Source: Spirochaetaceae bacterium 4572_59
GTDB taxonomy: Bacteria > Spirochaetota > Spirochaetia > DSM-2461
Direction: 5' to 3'
NCBI GenBank assembly: GCA_002084805.1
Contig: NBMC01000001.1
Location: 62,001 to 126,000, forward strand
Length of the DNA: 64,000 bases
Shown: positions 10,226-64,000 of the stretch, one piece after another
Layout: the number at the start of each line of letters is the position of its first letter
How positions within the stretch are numbered: the stretch's first letter is position 1
Notes under the pieces: model-generated
What the model was told of the DNA's origin: nothing
Seen by the model: the letters and a program-made list of their open reading frames with translations, nothing else
Database searches by the model: none
Translations under genes and position numbers: made by a program

Positions 10226-10668
10226 ACTGACGTTAATCTTATATCCGGGAGTCATCTGCGTAACGTTTCCATTAAAACAAAACTGGTCTACTCTCATATC
10301 CTTCTGGCTCTGGGAGCTATTATCCTGATGGGAACTCTTTCCCTAATCATCTCATTCCGTATTTTTAACAACAGGGAAAAGAATTATTTGAACAGGATTG
10401 CCCGTTCTATTGAGACCGATCTAGGCCAGTTTTATCAGGAGAACCCTACTCCTAATCCCGTTCTCTCAAAAGAGAGAATGAAAATCCCGATCCGGAAGAT
10501 CTGAATTCGTTGAAGACCCTTGTACAGAGAAAGCTTAGTCTTCGTCCTTTGAAGAACTATAGCCTTGAAGTTCTGCGTTACGATCAATATTTCTTTCATC
10601 CCATCTCGCTGCTTGTGGAAGGAATGCTCCGTTCTACAATGGCTGCTACTGTAGCGGCAATCCTCTGA
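10226..10668 (+). pseudogene. Frameshifted, truncated sensor-protein remnant
   Basis: No intact gene fits 10222-10697. The plus strand reads a typical sensor N-terminus: SIKTKLVYSHILLALGAII, a membrane helix, then IARSIETDLGQFYQ. This ends at TGA after about 10500. Moving one frame at the AGAGAGA tract (10471-10477) restores a continuous protein (NPDPEDLNSLKTLVQRK, then YSLEVLRYDQYFF) to a TGA at 10666-10668. No start codon is evident and nothing like a kinase core follows, so the gene has lost its start, suffered a one-base slip in the GA repeat and lost its 3' part. It resembles the periplasmic sensor half of a histidine kinase; that assignment is by style only. Confidence 0.6.
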
Positions 10669-21692: not shown

Positions 21693-22062
21693 TCAGGGAA
21701 ACAGAAAGCGCCTGAACTCTACCACCGAGCGGAAATAGGCCAGACAGTTTTTTCCCATATACTCCTGAATGATCCCTATGCTGTGTCCCCATCCTGCTCC
21801 GGCAATGGCAACAGCGCTTCGGCGGCTCATCTCCACGGCGGGTTTCAGGTCATCAACGATCAGGGCCTCCTCCCTGGATAATCCGTAGGCTGACAGTATC
21901 TGTTCTACCGGGTATGGGTGGGGCTTCCTTTTTTGTTTCGTCCATGTCCCAGCCGAAAACCAGTTCCGGAAGATGGGCGGCCCCGGCTGCCAGATAGTGT
22001 ATTTCAGGCGTACTCTGTACGGATGTATCGTCGTGATCCAGGATCAGGCAGCGGTATTTCAA
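21693..22062 (-). pseudogene. HAD-family phosphatase pseudogene (internal deletion plus frameshift)
   Basis: From a TTG at 22062, which overlaps the MORN stop, the frame reads LILDHDDTSVQSTPEIHY, the first HAD motif (DHDDT) in the normal place. It then reaches WDMDETKK after only about 45 residues, where over 100 are usual. A shift of frame there gives HPYPVEQILSAYGL, EEALIVDDLKPAVEM and AGAGWGHS, i.e. the HAD lysine (motif III) and acidic motif IV, ending at a TGA (21693-21695). So the cap region is deleted and the frame broken at the A-rich/CCC tract near 21920-21935. The gene once followed the MORN gene in an operon. Confidence 0.7.
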
Positions 22063-23204
22063 ATCATTTCCTCCAGGTCTGATGCATATTCCAGCAGCCC
22101 CTGTTCGGTTGTGCGGTTTTTGTCAAACAGTCCCGTGAAGCGGCTTCCGTCTGGCCAGGTAAAAACCCCTATCCCGTGCATCTGACCTTTCTTGAAGCTT
22201 CCCCTGTAGTGACTGCCGTCAGGCCAGAGACATTCCCCGTCTCCATGAGGAGTATTTTCAGAGAACTCTCCCCTGTAGTGACGTCCATCGGCTGTTATCA
22301 GGTCTCCCTGTCCGGACATAAGGCCCTCTTTAAACTGGCCTTTATACTGAGAACCATCCTTCCCTTTGAACTCTCCAGACTTGTGGGGTTTATCATCATG
22401 GTTGAGGAATCCCATATAAGTCCCGTTCTGGAATTCTCGGCACTCTTCTTGAATGTCCGATTCTTCGGGAGTAGGGACGTTTGGGGTAATTCCGGTCGCT
22501 TCATGAGAAAGAGAGACCCCGTGTGGTGCCCCCGGCAACGATTCGGAAAGGCCTCCCGGCAGGGAGATCCCCCGGTATACCGCTTCTATGGGAACTCGTT
22601 CCTCCCATACTTCTCCCCGGCTGCAAATTCTCTTCAGCCAGTTCTCCTGATGAAAAACAGGATATTCAAAGAAGTTGTGTTCCAGAATAATATTATCCTG
22701 ATTAATAATTATCTCTTCGGAGATAAGCCCTTTTTCATTTCTACTGTATTGGTAGCTCCGGAGTGGGCGACCCCCGGGGTCCAGTATTTCCATTTTAATG
22801 AGCCGATTCCAATCATCATAGTTGTAGGTGGAGATGCTTTCCTGGATGCCATTTAAAAAGCTGGTGGAATAATCCATCTGACCATTGTTGTTGTAATGAA
22901 ATGTTTTCTTTTCACCGCCCGACTCTTCGGAAAGTTTGTGATCAAGATTGTAGAGAATCCGGGTTTCTTTCTGAATCTGTCCATCTCCGCTGAGAATACG
23001 TTCCTTTACACAGAGGCCCTGATCGTTATATTCGTAGAGAGTAGAATTGGTCCTCTCCTGTTTTCTGATAATGAGGCCATCTTCGTTGTAAAAGGCCTGA
23101 GCCATAAGGAGCCGCTGTTCTTCTTCTCCGGGCAGTATCGTGTCCAGACGAACCGATTCCAGAGAGAGTGCGCGGATTCTTCCTAAAAAAGAGTACTCTT
23201 CCAT
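22059..23204 (-). CDS. MORN-repeat protein with RHS/YD-like N-terminal repeats
   Basis: 381 residues, no signal peptide. Residues about 30-200 hold short beta repeats of the YD/RHS style (YEYNDQGLCVKE, FHYNNNGQMDYS, YNYDDWNRLIKME, YQYSRNEKGLISEE). A linker follows to about 260. The C-terminal third has four or five MORN repeats (YKGQFKEGLMSGQG, YRGEFSENTPHGDG, YRGSFKKGQMHGIG, FTGLFDKNRTTEQG). Both parts form beta-hairpin repeat structures used as binding scaffolds. It has no obvious enzyme domain. Confidence 0.78.
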   Translation of the reverse strand: MEEYSFLGRIRALSLESVRLDTILPGEEEQRLLMAQAFYNEDGLIIRKQERTNSTLYEYNDQGLCVKERILSGDGQIQKETRILYNLDHKLSEESGGEKKTFHYNNNGQMDYSTSFLNGIQESISTYNYDDWNRLIKMEILDPGGRPLRSYQYSRNEKGLISEEIIINQDNIILEHNFFEYPVFHQENWLKRICSRGEVWEERVPIEAVYRGISLPGGLSESLPGAPHGVSLSHEATGITPNVPTPEESDIQEECREFQNGTYMGFLNHDDKPHKSGEFKGKDGSQYKGQFKEGLMSGQGDLITADGRHYRGEFSENTPHGDGECLWPDGSHYRGSFKKGQMHGIGVFTWPDGSRFTGLFDKNRTTEQGLLEYASDLEEMI

Positions 23205-51614: not shown

Positions 51615-52385
51615 ATGGGAAAAAATCAGCTGGAACGTATCTTAGGCATAGACCGCATTATCCGTGACCGAGGTGGTTGCACAAAAGAAGAGCTTCTGGT
51701 GCTTTTTGAAGTCAGCGGCAAATCGGTGGAGCGGGACTTTGCCTATATGCGTGACCGCCTCCATGCCCCTCTGGATTATAACCGTCACAATGAGCTCTAC
51801 ACTTACAGCGATAGCTCCTACTTTCTCCCTTCCGTCAGTCTCTCCGAGGGTGAGGTTATGGCCCTGGCTCTTTCAAGTGAAATCTTAAACCACTTTAATT
51901 ATGTAGACGATTTTAATGAACTGCGGGACTCCCTGGGGCGGATGACCTCCTATCTGCTGGCTTTCAGGGGTAGCTGGTATATCGTTGCACGCGATCCGAG
52001 TCGGGGGAATATAAGAACCTATGCTCTGGGCCGTATGCAAAAGCCTTATAAAACTAATACCACCTTTACCATCCCCGCGGATTTTCGTCTGGAGGATTAT
52101 GTAGATCCTGAGTGGGGTATTTACAGCCGGAGGGAGAAGTATGATTTTGTTCTGACTTTCACTCCTCGGGTGGCGGATCTTATCCGTGAGAAGATCTGGC
52201 ACAGGGATCAGAAGCTGGAAGAGCTGGCGGATGGTTCGGTGGTTTTGAGCTTTTCTTCGGGGCAGATTGAGACGATCGGTCAGTGGGTTCTGGGCTGGGG
52301 GGCGGATGTGCATGTGGCCTCTCCTGTGGACTTGATTGAGAGGATTAAGGAGACGGCTTCTCGGCTGGGAAATATGTATGGTTGA
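51615..52385 (+). CDS. WYL-domain transcriptional regulator, short form
   Basis: 256 residues, against about 310-330 for most. N-terminal HTH (GIDRIIRDRGGCTKEELLVLFEVSGKSVERDFAYMRDRL in outline). The WYL core is recognised by YLLAFRGSWYIVARDPSRGNIRTYALGRM landmarks, and the WCX C-terminus by VLTFTPRVADLIREKIWHRDQ. The part between, normally 60 or more residues, is nearly missing after FNELRDSLGRMTS. Either an in-frame deletion or a natural short form. WYL regulators often sit beside defence systems, as here. Confidence 0.8.
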   Translation: MGKNQLERILGIDRIIRDRGGCTKEELLVLFEVSGKSVERDFAYMRDRLHAPLDYNRHNELYTYSDSSYFLPSVSLSEGEVMALALSSEILNHFNYVDDFNELRDSLGRMTSYLLAFRGSWYIVARDPSRGNIRTYALGRMQKPYKTNTTFTIPADFRLEDYVDPEWGIYSRREKYDFVLTFTPRVADLIREKIWHRDQKLEELADGSVVLSFSSGQIETIGQWVLGWGADVHVASPVDLIERIKETASRLGNMYG

Positions 52386-52703: not shown

Positions 52704-54725
52704 ATGATAACACAAGAAACACTAAATAATTTAACAAACGAAATCTGGAAGTCAGCAGAACGGCTTCGGGGTAAATTTAAAGCATATGAATACCAAAGCG
52801 TTATTCTTCCAATCATCGTGATCCGGCGTATTGAATGTGTCCTTATTGAAATGCGAGAAGCAACAAGAAGTGAAATCCAATCTAAACGCCCTGATATTGC
52901 AGCTAAGAATTTGGAGGAAATGGTAAAAAAGATGGAATTATCCACATACCATTTTTTCAATTCAACAAACTGGTCTCTGGATGCCATCTATCAGGAAGAT
53001 CACACCATCATGGAAAAAAACTTCCGGGATTATATAAATGGATTCTCCGAAAACATTCAGGAAATTATTGACCATTTTAATTACCGAGCTGTTATTGGAC
53101 AAATGAAAAAGAATGGCCGACTTGCACCAATCATCAATCAATATAGAAATCAAGATTTAAACCCCAATAGAATCAGTAATATAGAAATGGGTTATATCTA
53201 TGAAGAATTGTTACGACGCTTTTCTGAGCAAAGTGGAGAAGAAGCCGGAGAACACTTTACTCCCAGAGAAGTAATCCGTTTGATGGTTGAATTACTTGAT
53301 ATTGCTGTGAAGGATAAACATGTTTCCATATATGACCCGGCCTGTGGAACTGGCGGAATGCTATCTGTCGCTAAAGCTCATGTGTTGGACAGAGTAAAGG
53401 ATGAAAATCAGAAATCAAAGATGGAAACCTTGATTACTCTTCACGGCCATGAAATACAACCACAAAACTATGCAATTTGCAAAGCAGATATGCTTATTAA
53501 AAATGATGCCAATGCCTATATTTATTACGGGAATTCTCTAGTACCCCATGATCCCGAGAGTGATGATCCCGGTGATCAGCTTGCCGGTAATTCCGATAAA
53601 TTTGACTATATGCTGTCAAATCCTCCTTTCGGAGTAACCTGGGGCGGAGAAGACGGGTATGAGAAAGAAGCCAGAAAGTTGGAAAAATCACGGTATAAAG
53701 CAGGGATGCCACGAACAAATGACGGAGCATTGCTTTTTCTCCAGACTATTATTTCAAAAATGAAACAGGTAAATGAAGGCGGTAGCAAAGTTGCCATTAT
53801 TTTTAATGGTTCTCCCTTAAGTAATGGTGACTGCGGATCAGGAGAAAGTGAGATTCGCCGCTGGATTCTGGAAAACGACTTGTTGGATGCCATTGTTATG
53901 CTGCCGGACCAGTTATTTTACAATACAGGTATATTCACCTACATTTGGCTGTTATCTAACAAGAAACTTAGTGAGCATAAAGAGAACGTAATGATTATCG
54001 ATGCCCGCAATCAATTTGAAAAGGAACCGAAGTCCTTTGGACACAAGCGAAACAGGATTACAGATGAGCATAGATCCTGGATAGAAAAACAGTACAAGCA
54101 GGGTTGGAAAAACGGGTATGAGAATGAAAATGTAAAAATATTCAGCAATAAGGATTTTGCATTTCATAAAGTAGCTGTAACATTCTGGCAGACCGATGAA
54201 AAGGACCAGCCCATGATGGTTACAGAAGGTTTTGATGTTCAGTTGTCAAATTCGAATGTGAAGAAAAAATTCGACCTGTATGGTGATCTGGATTTTTTAG
54301 TTTCCCTTGTTTCTCCCGAGGATGAAAAGAAGGAATATGCGTTAAAGATAAATGCTGATTCAAAATCCTTTGAAGTACAGCTTACAGCTTTAGCTCTAAC
54401 AGATTTTCCGGTTTTGAAGAAAGAGAAAACTACCGCTAAGATCTTTAAAGCTTTAAAAACATGGGAGCTTTCAGCGAAATACACCCACAAGCATTACATT
54501 CAGGATGATGAATATATACCCAATGGTGAAGATATAGAAGCTTTTCTGGAAAGGGAGATTGCCAAACCTATCATCAAATGGGAAGACCGTCCCCAGCTAG
54601 GTTATGAAATACTGCCTAATAAATATTTCTATAAATATGAGCCTCCAAAGCCTGCAGATGAAATACTAAATGAGTTCTGGAAGCTGGAAAAAGAAGCGGA
54701 AGAGATTCTCAAGGGGCTGAAGTGA
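52704..54725 (+). CDS. hsdM: Type I restriction-modification DNA methyltransferase, HsdM
   Basis: 673 residues. N-terminal HsdM helical domain, then the adenine N6-methylase motifs: SAM-binding YDPACGTGGML (DPACGTGG at 211-218) and catalytic NPPFG (306-310), with FTPREVIRLMV before them. C-terminal coiled region (KLEKEAEEILKG). Somewhat longer than usual. GTG of hsdS overlaps its stop. With HsdS it methylates host sites; with HsdR added it restricts foreign DNA. Confidence 0.95.
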   Translation: MITQETLNNLTNEIWKSAERLRGKFKAYEYQSVILPIIVIRRIECVLIEMREATRSEIQSKRPDIAAKNLEEMVKKMELSTYHFFNSTNWSLDAIYQEDHTIMEKNFRDYINGFSENIQEIIDHFNYRAVIGQMKKNGRLAPIINQYRNQDLNPNRISNIEMGYIYEELLRRFSEQSGEEAGEHFTPREVIRLMVELLDIAVKDKHVSIYDPACGTGGMLSVAKAHVLDRVKDENQKSKMETLITLHGHEIQPQNYAICKADMLIKNDANAYIYYGNSLVPHDPESDDPGDQLAGNSDKFDYMLSNPPFGVTWGGEDGYEKEARKLEKSRYKAGMPRTNDGALLFLQTIISKMKQVNEGGSKVAIIFNGSPLSNGDCGSGESEIRRWILENDLLDAIVMLPDQLFYNTGIFTYIWLLSNKKLSEHKENVMIIDARNQFEKEPKSFGHKRNRITDEHRSWIEKQYKQGWKNGYENENVKIFSNKDFAFHKVAVTFWQTDEKDQPMMVTEGFDVQLSNSNVKKKFDLYGDLDFLVSLVSPEDEKKEYALKINADSKSFEVQLTALALTDFPVLKKEKTTAKIFKALKTWELSAKYTHKHYIQDDEYIPNGEDIEAFLEREIAKPIIKWEDRPQLGYEILPNKYFYKYEPPKPADEILNEFWKLEKEAEEILKGLK

Positions 54726-56071
54726 TAAATGTTGATCTGAAAGATTCTGGTATAGAATGGATTGGAAAGATTCCGAAAGATTGGGGTGTTAGAACTCTGA
54801 AACGCACTGCATTTATTCATGGGCGTATCGGTTGGCAAGGTTTGACTTCAGAAGAATATTTAGATGAAGGGAATTATTATTTAGTAACGGGTACAGAATT
54901 TGAAGATGGAAAAGTTAACTGGAATGATTGTCATTATGTAGAAAGGGATAGGTTCCAACAAGATATTAAAATTCAATTAAAGTCTGACGATGTTTTGATA
55001 ACAAAAGATGGAACAATCGGTAAAATCGCTTTAATAGATTCCTTACCTAAACCAGCTACACTAAATAGTGGGGTTTTTGTTACTCGTGTAAGGAATAAAG
55101 AGTTTATCCCAATTTTTTTTTATTGGATATTGATTTCAGACTTATTTCCTCAGTTTATTGAATACTCAAAAGTTGGAACTACTATTAATCATTTATATCA
55201 AAAAACGTTTGAATGTTTTATTTACCCTCTCCCTTCGCTTTACGAACAAAAACTTATTTCCGCCTACCTTGATAAAATTACCGCCATCATCGATAAAGCA
55301 GTTTCCGTGAAAAAGAAACAGCTGGAAAAGTTGGAAGAGTTAAAGAAATCCATTATCTACAAAGCTGTTACAAAAGGCCTGGATGATTCGGTGGAAATGA
55401 AAGATTCAAGTATTGAATGGATTGGTGAAATACCAAAGGGTTGGGAAATAAAAAAACTAAAATATTATATTGAGATCAAAGATGGTACTCATGATACGCC
55501 AACATATGAGGAAACTTCTGTAGGGAATTATCCCTTTGTAACTTCCAAAGATATTACAAATAATGAAATAGATTTTTCTGCTGTAAAATATATTAACTCT
55601 GATTATCATGATAATTATTATAAAAGGTCTAATGTTATGAAAGATGATATTATCATGCCTATGATTGGTACTATTGGCAACTCTGCTATAGTTAAGAAAG
55701 AAGAACCATTTTCTATAAAGAATGTGGCCTTATTTAAAACGTCTAAAAATGAATTTACTAGTACGAAGTATCTTTTTTATTTTTTAGAAAGTGAATTAAA
55801 TAAGACACAATTTGAGATAATTTCCAAGGGGGGTGTTCAGGAATTTGTATCTCTTACTATTCTTCGAAATCTATATTTTTTAAAACCTAAAATAAAAGAA
55901 CAAAAACTCATCGTTGCCTATCTCGATCAAAAAACCTCCGAAATCGACTCTGTTTTTGAAAAAATAACCCTCCAAATAGAAAAACTGAAGGACTACAAAA
56001 AATCCCTAATCCACGAATGTGTTACCGGTAAACGTCGTATAACAGAAACTGAGATTCCGGAGGCTGTGTAA
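54722..56071 (+). CDS. hsdS: Type I restriction-modification specificity subunit HsdS
   Basis: 449 residues from a GTG overlapping the hsdM stop by four bases. Two target-recognition domains, each opened by the same phrase: DSGIEWIGKIPKDW (about 8-21) and DSSIEWIGEIPKGW (about 228-241). Each is followed by a conserved coiled-coil spacer (AYLDKITAIIDKAVS...KLEELKKS; AYLDQKTSEIDSV...KLKDYKKS). The TRDs are AT-rich and differ from each other, so the DNA target is bipartite. It overlaps the next ATG by one base. Confidence 0.93.
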   Translation: MINVDLKDSGIEWIGKIPKDWGVRTLKRTAFIHGRIGWQGLTSEEYLDEGNYYLVTGTEFEDGKVNWNDCHYVERDRFQQDIKIQLKSDDVLITKDGTIGKIALIDSLPKPATLNSGVFVTRVRNKEFIPIFFYWILISDLFPQFIEYSKVGTTINHLYQKTFECFIYPLPSLYEQKLISAYLDKITAIIDKAVSVKKKQLEKLEELKKSIIYKAVTKGLDDSVEMKDSSIEWIGEIPKGWEIKKLKYYIEIKDGTHDTPTYEETSVGNYPFVTSKDITNNEIDFSAVKYINSDYHDNYYKRSNVMKDDIIMPMIGTIGNSAIVKKEEPFSIKNVALFKTSKNEFTSTKYLFYFLESELNKTQFEIISKGGVQEFVSLTILRNLYFLKPKIKEQKLIVAYLDQKTSEIDSVFEKITLQIEKLKDYKKSLIHECVTGKRRITETEIPEAV

Positions 56072-57096
56072 TGGCAAAAGACTTGACCGTATCTGGAGTA
56101 GAACGGCAGAACATTCTCAATAATCCCTATGCTCTGGAAGAAATCCGAAGCAATATAGGAATTCACACTATCAGCTATAAGGGAGACGCTGTCCTGACGA
56201 AAGAGCAGGTTGCTGATTTCTTTGAAATAAGCCCCAGAACCATTGATAATTATCTTGCCCAAAACGAAGAGGAACTTAAGAAAAACGGTTACGAAGTTTT
56301 ACGAGGTAAATCCTTGAAGAATTTAAAATTAGCCATATCAGAGTCGGATGTCGACGAAATGTATTTCGTTAACATCAAAAAGGCTCCCAGCCTGGGTATC
56401 TTTGATTTCCGCTCTTTTTTAGACCTGGGAATGCTGATTACAGAGAGCGAGAAAGCTAAAATTCTACGGAAGATGATACTGGATATTGTCATTGATACAA
56501 TAAACAAGCAAACCGGCGGCTCAACTAAATATATAAATCAGCGGGATGAAGATTTTATAATTTCCTATTTTCAAGAGGAGAACTACCGAAGGGAATTCAC
56601 TGATTCTTTGAAAAACTACCTGGATATGGGAAAATTCAAATATCCTCTATATACCGACAAAATATATGTAAGCATTTTTAAAGAAAATTCTCGAGGATAC
56701 AGAAAAATATTAAAACTCCATGAGAAAGATAAGGTTCGGAACACTTTCTATTCAGAAATTCTTGATTTAATAGCCTCATATGAATACGGCTTTGCCAAAA
56801 CCCTTGAGGAAGCATATAAACAGAAAGGCTCTATGCTTTCTAGTCTCGAAGCTGATGCTTTATTTTCCGAGTTTGAAAAACAACCCCATTGGAAACCACT
56901 TGTAGAACGGGCTAGGAATAAAATGGCCAGCAGAGATTTGGCTTTTCGCGATGCTTTGCATATGCAGCTTAAAGAGTATATCTCACCGGTACAGGCTGAT
57001 GAATTTGAACGGTTCATCGGCCAGAAAAGCAAGGAGCTGGCAGATCGTATGGAAGAAGCAAAGGATGTTTTTAAACGCCTAAAGGAGAGGGATTGA
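56071..57096 (+). CDS. RhuM-like DNA-binding protein, putative Doc antitoxin
   Basis: 341 residues. N-terminal helix-turn-helix: LTKEQVADFFEISPRTIDNYL. A middle segment (GIFDFRSFLDLGMLITESEKAKILRKMILDI in outline) resembles the RhuM/ORF6N type found in type I RM loci. The C-terminus is helical. It precedes a Doc toxin gene by a four-base overlap, so it may be the cognate antitoxin, or a modulator of the RM system. The family name is by style; I am not certain. Confidence 0.5.
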   Translation: MAKDLTVSGVERQNILNNPYALEEIRSNIGIHTISYKGDAVLTKEQVADFFEISPRTIDNYLAQNEEELKKNGYEVLRGKSLKNLKLAISESDVDEMYFVNIKKAPSLGIFDFRSFLDLGMLITESEKAKILRKMILDIVIDTINKQTGGSTKYINQRDEDFIISYFQEENYRREFTDSLKNYLDMGKFKYPLYTDKIYVSIFKENSRGYRKILKLHEKDKVRNTFYSEILDLIASYEYGFAKTLEEAYKQKGSMLSSLEADALFSEFEKQPHWKPLVERARNKMASRDLAFRDALHMQLKEYISPVQADEFERFIGQKSKELADRMEEAKDVFKRLKERD

Positions 57097-57536
57097 GCCA
57101 TACTGTTTATATCACCATTGAAAACGCCCTCGAAGTATATCATAAAACTATAGCTGTCAGCGGCGGCGGTTCTGACGGAGTTATGGACTTAGGTAGGCTG
57201 GAAAGCGTATTAACTCATATTCAAAATGATCTTTATTACCCTGAGTTTGTGGATAAATTAACTCACCTTTTTTTCTGTGCGAATAAATTTCATTGTTTTG
57301 AAGATGGAAATAAACGAATTGCAATATCCCTCGGCGCTCAGTTTTTGCTTCTTAATGGATATGTTTTCATAGTTTCACGCTTTATCCGTGAAATGGAAAA
57401 TATAAGTTATCATCTGGCAGCAGGAAAAATTGAGAAGGATCTACTACGGGATATTATACAGGCTGTACTTGATGACAATATGGATAATGAAGAAATAAAA
57501 CTTAGTATATTTGAAGCAATTAGCAGGGAAGAATAA
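57093..57536 (+). CDS. Doc/Fic-family death-on-curing toxin
   Basis: 147 residues from a TTG overlapping the previous stop. The Fic/Doc motif is intact: HCFEDGNKR (67-75), i.e. H-x-F-x-D-G-N-K-R, preceded by LTHLFFCANKF and followed by FLLLNGY. In P1 Doc this motif phosphorylates EF-Tu. Inserted in an hsd operon between hsdS and hsdR; its stop overlaps the hsdR ATG by one base, so it is co-expressed with the RM system. Confidence 0.87.
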   Translation: MSHTVYITIENALEVYHKTIAVSGGGSDGVMDLGRLESVLTHIQNDLYYPEFVDKLTHLFFCANKFHCFEDGNKRIAISLGAQFLLLNGYVFIVSRFIREMENISYHLAAGKIEKDLLRDIIQAVLDDNMDNEEIKLSIFEAISREE

Positions 57537-60445
57537 TGGGAACAGAACTGGATTTTCAGAGGCACTTTGAGAATGCACTATCTAATATTCATGGATATAA
57601 AAAATATACAAATTCTAATCTTACAGATAAAGAATGGTATCTAATTGAAGATGATTTAATCGCATATTTAAAGAAGACACAGCTCTATCGATATGCCGAG
57701 CTAGAGCATAATTATGGAACTGATACTAATGATGAAATCATTAGGGCTATAAAGGAAGAAACAAAACATAAACCTTTGTGGATTATTTTCCGTAACGGAT
57801 TAAACGTTCGAGGAATCCATTTTAAGCTTTTTGACCGTATTCCTCGATCACAGGAATCATCAGAAATTCCTGAAAACAATACAATTGCATTTATCCCTCA
57901 GCTTGAGATAGATGAAGAGAAACGTCCTGATATTGTTCTTTTTCTTAATGGCTTGCCTATAATCGTTATAGAATTGAAACATGAGAAAAATCAAAATGTA
58001 CATGATGCTGTTACTCAATTTGTTGGTCGAAATCATACAGATAAGATCTTTAATTTACCATTTCTCTATATTGCTTCTGATACCAGTGAAGTTAAAGCAG
58101 CAACCAATCCCTCCCGTGAAGAAAATTTCCGGTGGTATAATTCCGGTCTCGTTAATCAACCTGAAAACCAGAATGAGTATTCCGTTGAATATCTGTACCG
58201 TTATGTACTAAGCAGGGATTCTATACTGGAAATGCTTAGCTTTTTCCTGATTTATGTTCCTAAAACTTCTGCATCAGAAGGCGTGCCGGGGAAAAACGCT
58301 TTTACTATTTTCCCGCGTTACCACCAATCACGTGTGGTTACCTCCTTATCGCAGAATCTGATAAGTTTTTTTGTTGAAAATGGAAATTGTGGTAAGCGGT
58401 ATTTGATCAATCATTCTGCAGGTTCTGGTAAAACTCTGACCATTTCCTGGTTAGCTGATCGCTTAAACAGTCTTTATGTTCCTGGAACAAGTAAAAAAAT
58501 AATAGATATAGTATTTATCCTCACAGATAGAAAAGTTTTGGATAAAAATGTTCGTGATGAATTGGATAACTTCACTCATTTAAATAACAAAATGAAATTC
58601 GCTAAAAAGGCAGATTATTTACCTCGTTTTATTAAAAATCGAGAACAAATCATTGTTACAACTCAGCAAAAGATTAACTGGATTATTGAAAAACTGAAAA
58701 ATGATCCAGAGCTAAAATCCTTAAGAATCGCTTTATTAATCGATGAGGCTCACAGATCTCAAGAAGGTAAATCTGGGACTAATATCCGTAATTTATTTAA
58801 AAAAGAGGATACTATTGCTGTAGAGGAACTCTCCGATGACGAGGATACTATAAACGATGAATTACAGAAGGCTGAATTTCCCAATTTGTTGACAGTGGCG
58901 TTTACAGCAACTCCGAGTCAATCAACAGTACAGTTGTTTGGCGCACCTTTTGATATATATTCAGAGTCAGAAGCAATTCAGGAAGGTTATATCATTGATG
59001 TTGCCTCAAGTATAATCTCATATAAAACTCTTTATAATCTGGAAAGCCGGATTATCCCATTCAGTGATGAGAAGACTTTTCCTCCAGGAATTATCAGTAA
59101 AATGTTGAAAAACATCGCTTATCAGGATAAAGGACTTATTCAATATAAAGCTGAACTAATGCTCCGAATATTTGAAGAGAATATTTCAGATTTGATAAAC
59201 TGTAAAGCGAAAGCTATGATAGTAACAGCATCGAGAATTGCAGGCTTAGAGTACTATAAAGTTTTAAAAGAAAAATTAAAAGAAAAAAGAAAAGTAGATT
59301 CTGAAGAGTATGATTATCATGTTCTCTATGCATTTTCTGATTTTACTAATCCAGAAACAGGAAAAGACATTACAGAACAACAAGTTAATGGTCTAAGTAA
59401 TGGCGAGCTCATTGAGGATTTATTTGATACAGATAAATATCGTCTTCTTATCGTTGCTAATAAATTTCAAACAGGCTTTGATCAACCTTTATTAGCGGGA
59501 ATGTTTCTTGATAAACCCGTTAGTGATCGGAATGCGGTCCAGACAGTATCACGTCTTAATCGTTGCCATGAGAATAAAGACAGAGTTGTAGTTGTAGATT
59601 TCACTAATAATGCGGATGAGATAATTAATGCCTTCAAAAAATATCGCGATGGAACGCCCTTTGAGCCTATTGAGCCGGATATCAAAAAGCTTGAGAGCCT
59701 ATATAATGAAATTCTCTCGTGGAATATCTATAACCTATCTACTGCAAAAGAAACAGTTGAAATTATTAGCGCAGGTTCAGATACAAATCTACAGACTCAA
59801 GCGAATAGATTAAGAATCCTGTTTAAAGACAAAACAAATGATATTGAGCAACAAAAAGAATATATCAGACTTTTATCAAAATATAGTTCAACCTGCATTT
59901 TTATGAGTAATTTCTTCGAAATAAAAGAGGATTTTATGATATTTGGGATTTTTACAGAATTTATCGTGCCGCAGATGATAAAAGAAGGTTCTGACTCGGA
60001 GTTAAAAAGAATAATGCAAGGAATCTATGTAACCAAAGCTGCGGTCTCTTATGTTGGAGAAAAGAAACTGGAAGGTAAATATACGAAAAAAAATGGGAAT
60101 GCTGGTACTGGAAATAGAAAGCCCCAAAAAGTAACTGTTAAAGAAGTTCTCGATAGCATTCGTGAAAAATATAAAATAACCGAAGAGGAAGCACTTGTAA
60201 TTAAAGATGTTTGTGAAGAAAAAATGGATGATGAATCGATAAGTAGCATTATCACGATCCATATTGATGATATGGATTACCTGGATAATGTCTACAAAAA
60301 GGAGATTAGAAAATCTATCGAGAATAGTTATACCAAAAGATCATTGTATGAGTGTCTTACTGATGAAAAATATATAGATCCGGGCTCTATATTTGACATC
60401 ATGTCACATACTGTTCTACATGTCACGATTGATAAATGTGCTTAG
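57536..60445 (+). CDS. hsdR: Type I restriction endonuclease subunit HsdR
   Basis: 969 residues. N-terminal PD-(D/E)xK nuclease: RPDIVLFLNGLPIIVIELKHEK with D132 and E146-x-K148. Helicase: Walker A AGSGKT (296-301), DEAH box LLIDEAHRSQ (404-407), VAFTATPSQ, and motif VI QTVSRLNRCH. C-terminal part binds the methylase. It translocates DNA and cuts at a distance. Ends the five-gene operon; the attC-like site follows 68 bases after its stop. Confidence 0.95.
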   Translation: MGTELDFQRHFENALSNIHGYKKYTNSNLTDKEWYLIEDDLIAYLKKTQLYRYAELEHNYGTDTNDEIIRAIKEETKHKPLWIIFRNGLNVRGIHFKLFDRIPRSQESSEIPENNTIAFIPQLEIDEEKRPDIVLFLNGLPIIVIELKHEKNQNVHDAVTQFVGRNHTDKIFNLPFLYIASDTSEVKAATNPSREENFRWYNSGLVNQPENQNEYSVEYLYRYVLSRDSILEMLSFFLIYVPKTSASEGVPGKNAFTIFPRYHQSRVVTSLSQNLISFFVENGNCGKRYLINHSAGSGKTLTISWLADRLNSLYVPGTSKKIIDIVFILTDRKVLDKNVRDELDNFTHLNNKMKFAKKADYLPRFIKNREQIIVTTQQKINWIIEKLKNDPELKSLRIALLIDEAHRSQEGKSGTNIRNLFKKEDTIAVEELSDDEDTINDELQKAEFPNLLTVAFTATPSQSTVQLFGAPFDIYSESEAIQEGYIIDVASSIISYKTLYNLESRIIPFSDEKTFPPGIISKMLKNIAYQDKGLIQYKAELMLRIFEENISDLINCKAKAMIVTASRIAGLEYYKVLKEKLKEKRKVDSEEYDYHVLYAFSDFTNPETGKDITEQQVNGLSNGELIEDLFDTDKYRLLIVANKFQTGFDQPLLAGMFLDKPVSDRNAVQTVSRLNRCHENKDRVVVVDFTNNADEIINAFKKYRDGTPFEPIEPDIKKLESLYNEILSWNIYNLSTAKETVEIISAGSDTNLQTQANRLRILFKDKTNDIEQQKEYIRLLSKYSSTCIFMSNFFEIKEDFMIFGIFTEFIVPQMIKEGSDSELKRIMQGIYVTKAAVSYVGEKKLEGKYTKKNGNAGTGNRKPQKVTVKEVLDSIREKYKITEEEALVIKDVCEEKMDDESISSIITIHIDDMDYLDNVYKKEIRKSIENSYTKRSLYECLTDEKYIDPGSIFDIMSHTVLHVTIDKCA

Positions 60446-60775: not shown

Positions 60776-61384
60776 ATGGACAAAACAATAAGCCTTAAGA
60801 TCAACGACCAGGACTACAATATAGATTATTCCGGATTAAATAGTCGGGATGGGGCTATCCGGTATTTTGAACCGGCACTCAAACGGGAAATAACCGCCCA
60901 TCTTTCCCATATCCCATACTTTGTAGCAGGCCGCGTTCATCTTCGGGATGGAGTCATTACAGAAGAAGCCATCCTAAAATGCCGTGCTCTGATTCCTCAT
61001 ACCACTCGGTTCTATAAAGCCATGGCCGGGATAGATTCTGAGAAGTTCTACACTACTTTCTGGAACAGATTCGGCAGGAAGAAACTGAGTCGATATTCCT
61101 CCTTGCAGACTCATCTTAATGAAGTTTCCGGAATCAGAAAGAAATTGAAGAGATCCTTAAAAAAGGAATCCCTATTGGATAATAGGGAGAAATCACTTCT
61201 TTTCGGCCTATTGAAGAAGGGGGAGAAAGATATCCAGGATCAAATTCTCCGACAGCGTATGGTGATTGATGACTCTCTGAGGGATGATTTTCTGGAACGG
61301 ACAGGGATCGATTTTATAGGCAATTTAGAGATTGAGGTACTCTCTGATTACTTTCAGATTTTCAGGGAGGTCCCGATAATTTAA
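60776..61384 (+). CDS. Hypothetical protein between the RM and Wadjet systems
   Basis: 202 residues, no signal or membrane segment. N-terminal beta strand pair (ISLKINDQDYNIDYSGLN), then a mixed domain with AGRVHLRDGVITEEAILKC and a basic middle (RKKLKRSLKKESL). C-terminal GIDFIGNLEIEVLSDYF. I do not recognise it. It stands alone with its own ribosome site (CAGGA). Its location between two defence systems makes a defence or regulatory role possible, not shown. Confidence 0.7.
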   Translation: MDKTISLKINDQDYNIDYSGLNSRDGAIRYFEPALKREITAHLSHIPYFVAGRVHLRDGVITEEAILKCRALIPHTTRFYKAMAGIDSEKFYTTFWNRFGRKKLSRYSSLQTHLNEVSGIRKKLKRSLKKESLLDNREKSLLFGLLKKGEKDIQDQILRQRMVIDDSLRDDFLERTGIDFIGNLEIEVLSDYFQIFREVPII

Positions 61385-61733: not shown

Positions 61734-63152
61734 ATGCCCCTGGATTATTTTGAACTGAAGAGCCCCCTTATCGCAGGATTCCTTGACCGTGTCTTTTCAG
61801 ATGTGGCGGTCAGGCAGATTCGCGAATCAGAGATTATCATGCGACTGGAAGACTACCTTTTCTCCCTGCGGGAATTGGAATCGGAGGACCGTTTTCCCCG
61901 CAGTGCGGCAGATTATCTGAACGAATGGAGCCGGAACGACAAGGGCTGGCTGCGAAAATTCTATCCTCCGGGGATCGACGAACCCCATTTTGATCTGACC
62001 CCGGCCAGTGAAAAATCTCTTCAGTGGATGCGTGAGCTTTTCGAGCGTTCCTTTATCGGAACAGAAAGCCGCCTCTATTCCAGCATCGAGCTGCTGAAGC
62101 AGATTGTCCATGGGATGGAGGAGGATGAGGATGCCAGAATCGCCCGTCTGGAGGAAGAGAAGGTCAGGATCGACCGTGAGATCAAGAGGGTCCGGGAGGG
62201 CGATGTCCCTCTGCTGAGTGACCGCGAAGTAAGAGAGCGATTTCTTCAGTTTGAACGGCAGTCCGGTGAACTATTAAGCGATTTCAGAGCGGTGGAGCAG
62301 AACTTCCGTGATCTAGACCGTGAAACCCGTGAAAAAATCGCTTCATGGACCGGGGAGAAGAGTGGTCTCCTTAAAACCCTGCTGGGGGAACGGGACGCCA
62401 TCTCCGGATCTGACGAAGGTCAGAGCTTTTCAGCCTTCTGGGATTTCTTGATGTCCTCCGCCAGTCAGGAGGAACTTTCTGATCTACTGGATACTGTTTG
62501 CTCCCTGGAGCCGGTAAAAGGGTTGGAGGATTTTTCCCGTTACAGGCGCATACACTTTGACTGGATGCGTGCGGGAGAGCAGACCCAGCGCACCGTAGCC
62601 CGGCTGAGTCAACAGCTGCGCCGTTTTCTGGACGATAAAAGCTTTTATGAGAACCGGAGGATCAGCCGGCTCCTGGACAGTATTGAACAACAGGCTCTCA
62701 AAATCCGGGGAGACACTCCCGAGGGGATCTTTATGGAGTTGGGCGGATTTAAGCCGGATGTTCGGATGCCCATGGAGCACCCTCTGTTTTCTCCACCGCT
62801 TACACAGGATCTGCAGGCCTCCATGGATGAGATCGATCTGAGTGATCTGGATGACAAAGCATTATTCAAGCAGACCTTTGTGGATAAGAAGAGACTGAAC
62901 GGGAATATCAGACGGTTTTTGCAGAAAGTGGATCAGGCCACACTGGGACAGATTCTGCAGGAGCATCCCCTGGAGGAAGGCTTGGCCGAACTCCTTACCT
63001 ATCTGCATATTGCAGAGGAACAGCTATCTGCCTTGGTGGATGATAAAGAGAAGGAACTTGTAGTGTGGACCGATCATGTCGGCATTCAAAGGCAGGCAAA
63101 GATACCCAGAATACTATTTAACAGGACAGGCTATGAACGAAACAAAGGGTGA
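61734..63152 (+). CDS. jetA: Wadjet defence protein JetA (DUF3375, kleisin-like)
   Basis: 472 residues, the DUF3375 family: SPLIAGFLDRVF opening, NEWSRNDKGWLRKFYPPGIDEPHFDLTPASEKSLQWMRE landmarks, a long charged coiled coil (about 125-230), and a DQATLGQILQEHPLEEGLAELLTYLHIAE end. JetA is the MukF/kleisin-like part of a condensin-type complex that binds and cuts circular plasmid DNA. It overlaps jetB by 20 bases. Confidence 0.93.
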   Translation: MPLDYFELKSPLIAGFLDRVFSDVAVRQIRESEIIMRLEDYLFSLRELESEDRFPRSAADYLNEWSRNDKGWLRKFYPPGIDEPHFDLTPASEKSLQWMRELFERSFIGTESRLYSSIELLKQIVHGMEEDEDARIARLEEEKVRIDREIKRVREGDVPLLSDREVRERFLQFERQSGELLSDFRAVEQNFRDLDRETREKIASWTGEKSGLLKTLLGERDAISGSDEGQSFSAFWDFLMSSASQEELSDLLDTVCSLEPVKGLEDFSRYRRIHFDWMRAGEQTQRTVARLSQQLRRFLDDKSFYENRRISRLLDSIEQQALKIRGDTPEGIFMELGGFKPDVRMPMEHPLFSPPLTQDLQASMDEIDLSDLDDKALFKQTFVDKKRLNGNIRRFLQKVDQATLGQILQEHPLEEGLAELLTYLHIAEEQLSALVDDKEKELVVWTDHVGIQRQAKIPRILFNRTGYERNKG

Positions 63153-63726
63153 AAGCGAATTTTCAATACTGCTGGTTTCACTGATGAAATCGGTGATGAA
63201 CCGGGAGGATAATCCCTCCCGCTGGCAGCAGCTCCTCAACAGTCAGAGCGAACTGCGGGAATATCTTTCCCGTATGGCTTTGGATCTTGTCATCGACGAA
63301 GAGGAGGGATTTGCCTATCTGAGGAACCTGGATCTGCAGGAGGAGTCCGTCCCCCGCTTGATCAGTCGCAGGCCTCTCTCCTATCCCGTCAGTCTGCTTC
63401 TCGCTCTCTTGAGGAGAAAAATGTCCGAGCATGATGCGGGCAGTGGCGAAGTGAGGATTATTCTGGATAAACAGGATGTTCTGGATATGCTGGCGGTCTA
63501 TTTTCCTGTGGGGATGAACGAGGTTCAATTTGTACGCAGGGCCGAGGGATATATGAAAAGGGCTGCTGAAATGGGATTTATCCGTTATCTGGGAGAGGAT
63601 AAGCAAAAACTGGAGATAAAGAGGATCCTCAAAGCATTTGTGGACGCCCAGTGGCTAAATGAACTTGATCTGAAACTTAATGAGTATAAGAGGCATGGCG
63701 GACTGGATGAGGGGGATGAGCTATGA
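63133..63726 (+). CDS. jetB: Wadjet defence protein JetB (DUF4194)
   Basis: 197 residues from the ATG at 63133 (an in-frame start at 63076 is inside jetA). The DUF4194 pattern, a MukE-like winged-helix protein: [33 protein letters not shown] in outline, [48 protein letters not shown]. It bridges JetA and the ATPase. Stop overlaps the jetC ATG by four bases. Confidence 0.92.
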
Positions 63727-64000
63727 CTGGCGGCGATGGCTTTCTCGAATTCTCCGAAGACGATGGTTTGGCGGGATTCCGGCTGGAACGGATGGAACTC
63801 TTTAACTGGGGAACATTTCATAATGCAGTGTGGGAGTTTCCCCTGGCTGGTAAAAACGGTCTGCTGACGGGGGATATCGGTTCGGGTAAGTCCACTCTGG
63901 TGGATGCGGTGACCACCCTCTTGGTACCGCCGGGGAAAATTCGCTACAACAAGGCTGCCGGTGCGGAGAAAAAGGAGCGCTCCCTGCGGTCCTACGTTTT
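63723..64000 (+). CDS. jetC: Wadjet SMC-like ATPase JetC, 3' partial
   Basis: First 92 codons only; the gene runs off the window. The start shows the MukB/SbcC-like opening: [15 protein letters not shown], then Walker [16 protein letters not shown] (GDIGSGKST at 50-58), and [18 protein letters not shown], the expected JetC signature. It is the SMC motor of the Wadjet complex. jetD, a topoisomerase-VI-A-like nuclease, would be expected further right. Confidence 0.92.

Follow-up and report, generated by a model that had tools for sequence, protein, structure and literature searches.

A type I Wadjet operon, probably a relic inactivated recently by short deletions, in Spirochaetaceae bacterium 4572_59

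Genes at the locus

The window analysed here is a stretch of 64,000 nucleotides (positions 62001–126000 of contig C1) from the draft genome of Spirochaetaceae bacterium 4572_59, which consists of 93 contigs at a completeness of 93.5 percent. A jet operon begins close to the downstream edge of the window. The contig continues for 7.4 kb past that edge and ends at position 133414; genes beyond the edge are given in the coordinates of segment L002 (C1:122001–133414), in which a position equals the window position minus 60000. Profile searches with the PADLOC type 1 families and Pfam domains were used to call the Wadjet genes.

Window 61734–63152, forward strand: jetA (kleisin, DUF3375), 472 amino acids; matches DUF3375 and JetA1
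Window 63133–63726, forward strand: jetB (MukE/MksE-like KITE subunit, DUF4194), intact; matches DUF4194, MksE and JetB1
Window 63723–64000, forward strand: 5' end of jetC with Walker A, first 92 residues; matches AAA_29 and JetC1
L002 3723–6605, forward strand: N-terminal part of jetC, 960 amino acids, closed by an early stop after a deletion of ~67 bp
L002 6602–7045, forward strand: C-terminal part of jetC in another frame, with the signature motif and Walker B
L002 7041–8063, forward strand: jetD remnant (DUF3322 and JetD_C), lacking its first ~53 residues and a start codon

JetA matches Pfam DUF3375 with E=1.6e-132 and PADLOC JetA1 with E=1.6e-181; JetB matches DUF4194 (2e-40), MksE (2.5e-15) and JetB1 (7.7e-67), and the JetC 5' end, from 63723, matches AAA_29 (1.4e-25) and JetC1 (8e-47). 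Across the whole operon JetA1, JetB1, JetC1 (in two pieces) and JetD1 are all matched, in the order jetABCD. These PADLOC type I and Pfam matches confirm what a sequence-only reading of the window had proposed, namely DUF3375, DUF4194 and an SMC-type ATPase with Walker A in the order jetA-jetB-jetC. The tight overlap of the genes that it described was also found: the longest jetB open reading frame spans 63076–63726, the start at 63133 is more likely, and with this start jetA and jetB overlap by 20 bp, while jetB and jetC overlap by 4 bp. The jetD that it had proposed to look for past position 64000 is present: a gene with DUF3322 and JetD_C follows jetC, although its 5' end is deleted. The genome is spirochaete-like, as had been thought, since the nearest named loci to this jet operon are those of Spirochaetaceae and Spirochaetales MAGs. 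NCBIfam gave zero matches for any Jet protein, including the intact JetD of the congener G002.

A MksBEF or MukBEF condensin, a nuclease-free set of JetABC-like genes without jetD, was considered and is ruled out by the jetD remnant within the operon. The type I Wadjet systems of E. coli GF4-3 and P. aeruginosa PA14 (PDB 8q72, 8as8, 8dk1–8dk3, 7til) likewise carry jetA to jetD in this order, and the JetA of 4572_59 and the JetC and JetD of G002 match solved Wadjet chains from this set. Unlike these systems, 4572_59 has a frameshifted jetC, a JetD without its N-terminus and a JetA that lacks 16 residues.

Neighbourhood of the operon

The surrounding region encodes further genes of a defence type.

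Window 51615–52385, forward strand: WYL-domain regulator, beside leuS, between leuS and the restriction-modification operon
Window 52704–60445, forward strand: type I restriction-modification (RM) operon (HsdM, HsdS, PDC-M59A, the Fic-like PDC-M59B, HsdR), apparently intact; not part of Wadjet
L002 8080–8420: fic remnant, deleted, downstream of the jetD remnant

Between the end of HsdR at 60445 and jetA there is 1.3 kb, the distance at which the type I RM operon had been placed before. The WYL regulator is missing about 60 internal residues relative to congeners, owing to an in-frame deletion. Together, the RM operon and the fic and WYL remnants support a defence-type island that is partly decayed; the defence island suggested earlier thus stands, but not as an undamaged one. 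PDC-M59A and PDC-M59B are candidate defence genes (window 56071–57536, forward strand) between hsdS and hsdR. A 202-residue open reading frame between hsdR and jetA (window 60776–61384, forward strand) matched no family, and a comparison with 61 genomes found no relative. Also past the window edge are a ferredoxin-nitroreductase gene and a gene for an Ig-like (Big_2) protein.

Breaks in jetA, jetC and jetD

The Jet proteins were aligned with those of five relatives, G002 and G003 among them. The operon of 4572_59 has three deletions, and none of similar size occurs in the Jet proteins of the five relatives. The first is an in-frame deletion of 48 bp near window position 61760. It leaves the JetA frame open but takes out 16 residues, about HMRKSHPAWRLMAAEN, that would follow residue 9. 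The stretch is kept in all five aligned relatives and covered by every other complete JetA examined; this gap in the N-terminal region had been overlooked when the three visible genes were correctly named.

The second deletion, of ~67 bp near L002 position 6521, shifts the frame of jetC and leads to a stop that cuts the C-terminal ATPase half off the main chain. The two pieces match profile positions 7–932 (N-terminal part) and 982–1118 (C-terminal part) of 1123, and relative to the same-genus G002 residues 935–953 (about 20) are lost and the frame is changed. JetC is therefore not one chain: Walker A is separated from the signature motif and Walker B, which are in a different frame, and the last 26 or so residues of the N-terminal part are out of frame. 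The third deletion, of ~135 bp near L002 position 7015, lies where jetC meets jetD. It costs JetD its start codon and ~53 residues from the N-terminus, so that conservation with the relatives begins at residue 54 of G002 JetD (numbered from stop to stop). The Toprim part is retained, with VEND and DLDSHG, but the nuclease is incomplete.

jetB is undamaged in alignment with the relatives. The jet genes contain no single-base nonsense mutations; their remaining coding sequence is well conserved and its catalytic motifs are intact. Neither the missing piece of jetC nor a second Wadjet copy was found elsewhere in the 4572_59 genome.

These breaks bear directly on whether the operon could still work. 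The sequence-only reading implied a working anti-plasmid system, and the gene order and families do fit one. It had also named a jetC broken by stops as a reason to give up this view, and the frameshifted, stop-terminated jetC past position 64000, with the jetD that lacks its 5' end, makes a working Wadjet very unlikely; the deletions in jetC, jetD and jetA leave the family assignment standing, not the activity. A variant would have JetC made as two polypeptides from coupled open reading frames, forming one head that still acts on DNA with the shortened JetA and JetD. Both parts of JetC keep ATPase motifs, and the second open reading frame has a possible overlapping GTG start (a GTGA stop/start overlap at L002 6602–6605). 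However, no Shine-Dalgarno sequence precedes this GTG, about 20 residues are missing at the break, the N-terminal part carries its out-of-frame tail of about 26 residues, no relative has the same split, and JetD has no start; we regard such an arrangement as scarcely credible. No slippery heptamer that would indicate programmed frameshifting of jetC was found in the overlap of the two frames.

Related loci and origin of the operon

Five related jet loci are intact, with jetC as one full-length open reading frame in each (G002, G003, G005, G007 and G010). In a survey of about 40 loci in which jetC is not cut by a contig end, jetC was spread over more than one frame in five (4572_59, G087, G071, G069 and L041); the split jetC of G021 was left out of this count, as contig ends fall inside the gene. 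None of the other four shares the break of 4572_59. The jetC genes of G071 (locus L062) and G087 (L061), which are of the same class, contain an in-frame stop codon, TAG or TAA, that interrupts them.

One of the intact operons, that of G002 (L056), adjoins leuS as in 4572_59. Its JetA, JetB, JetC and JetD are 77, 72, 74 and 56 percent identical to those of 4572_59 over aligned residues; it differs in being intact and in that leuS and jetA are not separated by a type I RM operon. Since G002 has a complete jetABCD at this site, the operon of 4572_59 was probably inherited there. The jet operon of G003 (L057, 1–19001) is away from leuS and has short transposase-like open reading frames upstream.

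In a relative-rate test the Jet proteins had 140 replacements on the 4572_59 side versus 150 (p=0.6), i.e. no excess. Constraint on the operon thus lasted until recently, and its loss is recent.

Other damaged genes in the genome

The possibility that breaks are confined to the Jet locus was rejected. Nearly all comparable genes of the window, set against five congeners, have no 4572_59-specific gap of 10 or more residues; the exceptions, besides the Jet genes, are the WYL regulator and the two genes below, and fic is broken as well.

Window 10244–10665, forward strand: sensor histidine kinase remnant that has an in-frame stop and lacks the HAMP and kinase domains; full length in congeners
Window 21699–22077, reverse strand: HAD-like hydrolase remnant with about 95 residues deleted and a frameshift

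These four genes look dispensable, while housekeeping genes compared with congeners are intact. The genome, at 3.29 Mb, is small for a genus that ranges from 4.0 to 5.9 Mb. Its size and the similarly broken dispensable genes suggest that it is eroding, with such genes lost through short deletions.

The same genes help to judge whether the strain carries an intact Wadjet whose missing stretches were lost in assembly. The genome is a draft in 93 contigs, several short gaps lie close together, and the deletions come without an excess of point changes, all of which would fit an assembly error. On the other hand, comparable housekeeping genes lack such gaps, the other broken genes add a stop or frameshift to their deletion, and the sequence common to the two sides of a junction seems shorter than about 10 bases, too short for the usual collapse of repeats. 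We consider an assembly error unlikely.

Predicted loss of function

We conclude, with a probability of about 0.8, that the locus is a relic of a type I Wadjet operon (jetABCD) which short deletions have recently inactivated. The assembly shows the deletions and the frame break, and relatives show the intact state; from these we infer that the cell carries the breaks and that function was lost. Against decay, the sequence evidence comes from a single assembly, jetB is intact and catalytic motifs are conserved.

In an intact Wadjet, JetABC extrudes DNA loops with ATP and recognises small closed circles, which the Toprim nuclease JetD then cuts. In 4572_59 the jetC frameshift would leave the main JetC chain without the C-terminal ATPase half-head, which holds the signature motif and Walker B. 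JetD would have neither its N-terminus nor a start codon, and JetA would be incomplete in its N-terminal region. Because of this damage neither ATP-driven sensing nor controlled cleavage is expected. Published work reports that Wadjet needs each of its four subunits and a functional JetC ATPase (PMC10586767). The losses in JetC and JetD, as predicted from the genes, should abolish plasmid restriction.

Gene-by-gene searches call a Wadjet system here; the breaks correct what is likely a false annotation, as the system is very probably dead. The locus is a small example of recent loss of a defence system. When Wadjet is lost, plasmid uptake can increase strongly, by about five orders of magnitude in Clostridium cellulovorans (PMC12287153), so that Wadjet relics mark lineages that may have become open to plasmids. 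No relaxase, a sign of resident plasmids, was found, but for a draft genome this says little either way. The kind of locus is already known, since the PADLOC paper shows a Wadjet example with a frameshifted jetC (PMC9252829). Both loci have a jetC pseudogene within a recognisable type I operon, but that of 4572_59 has more than one deletion, jetD included.
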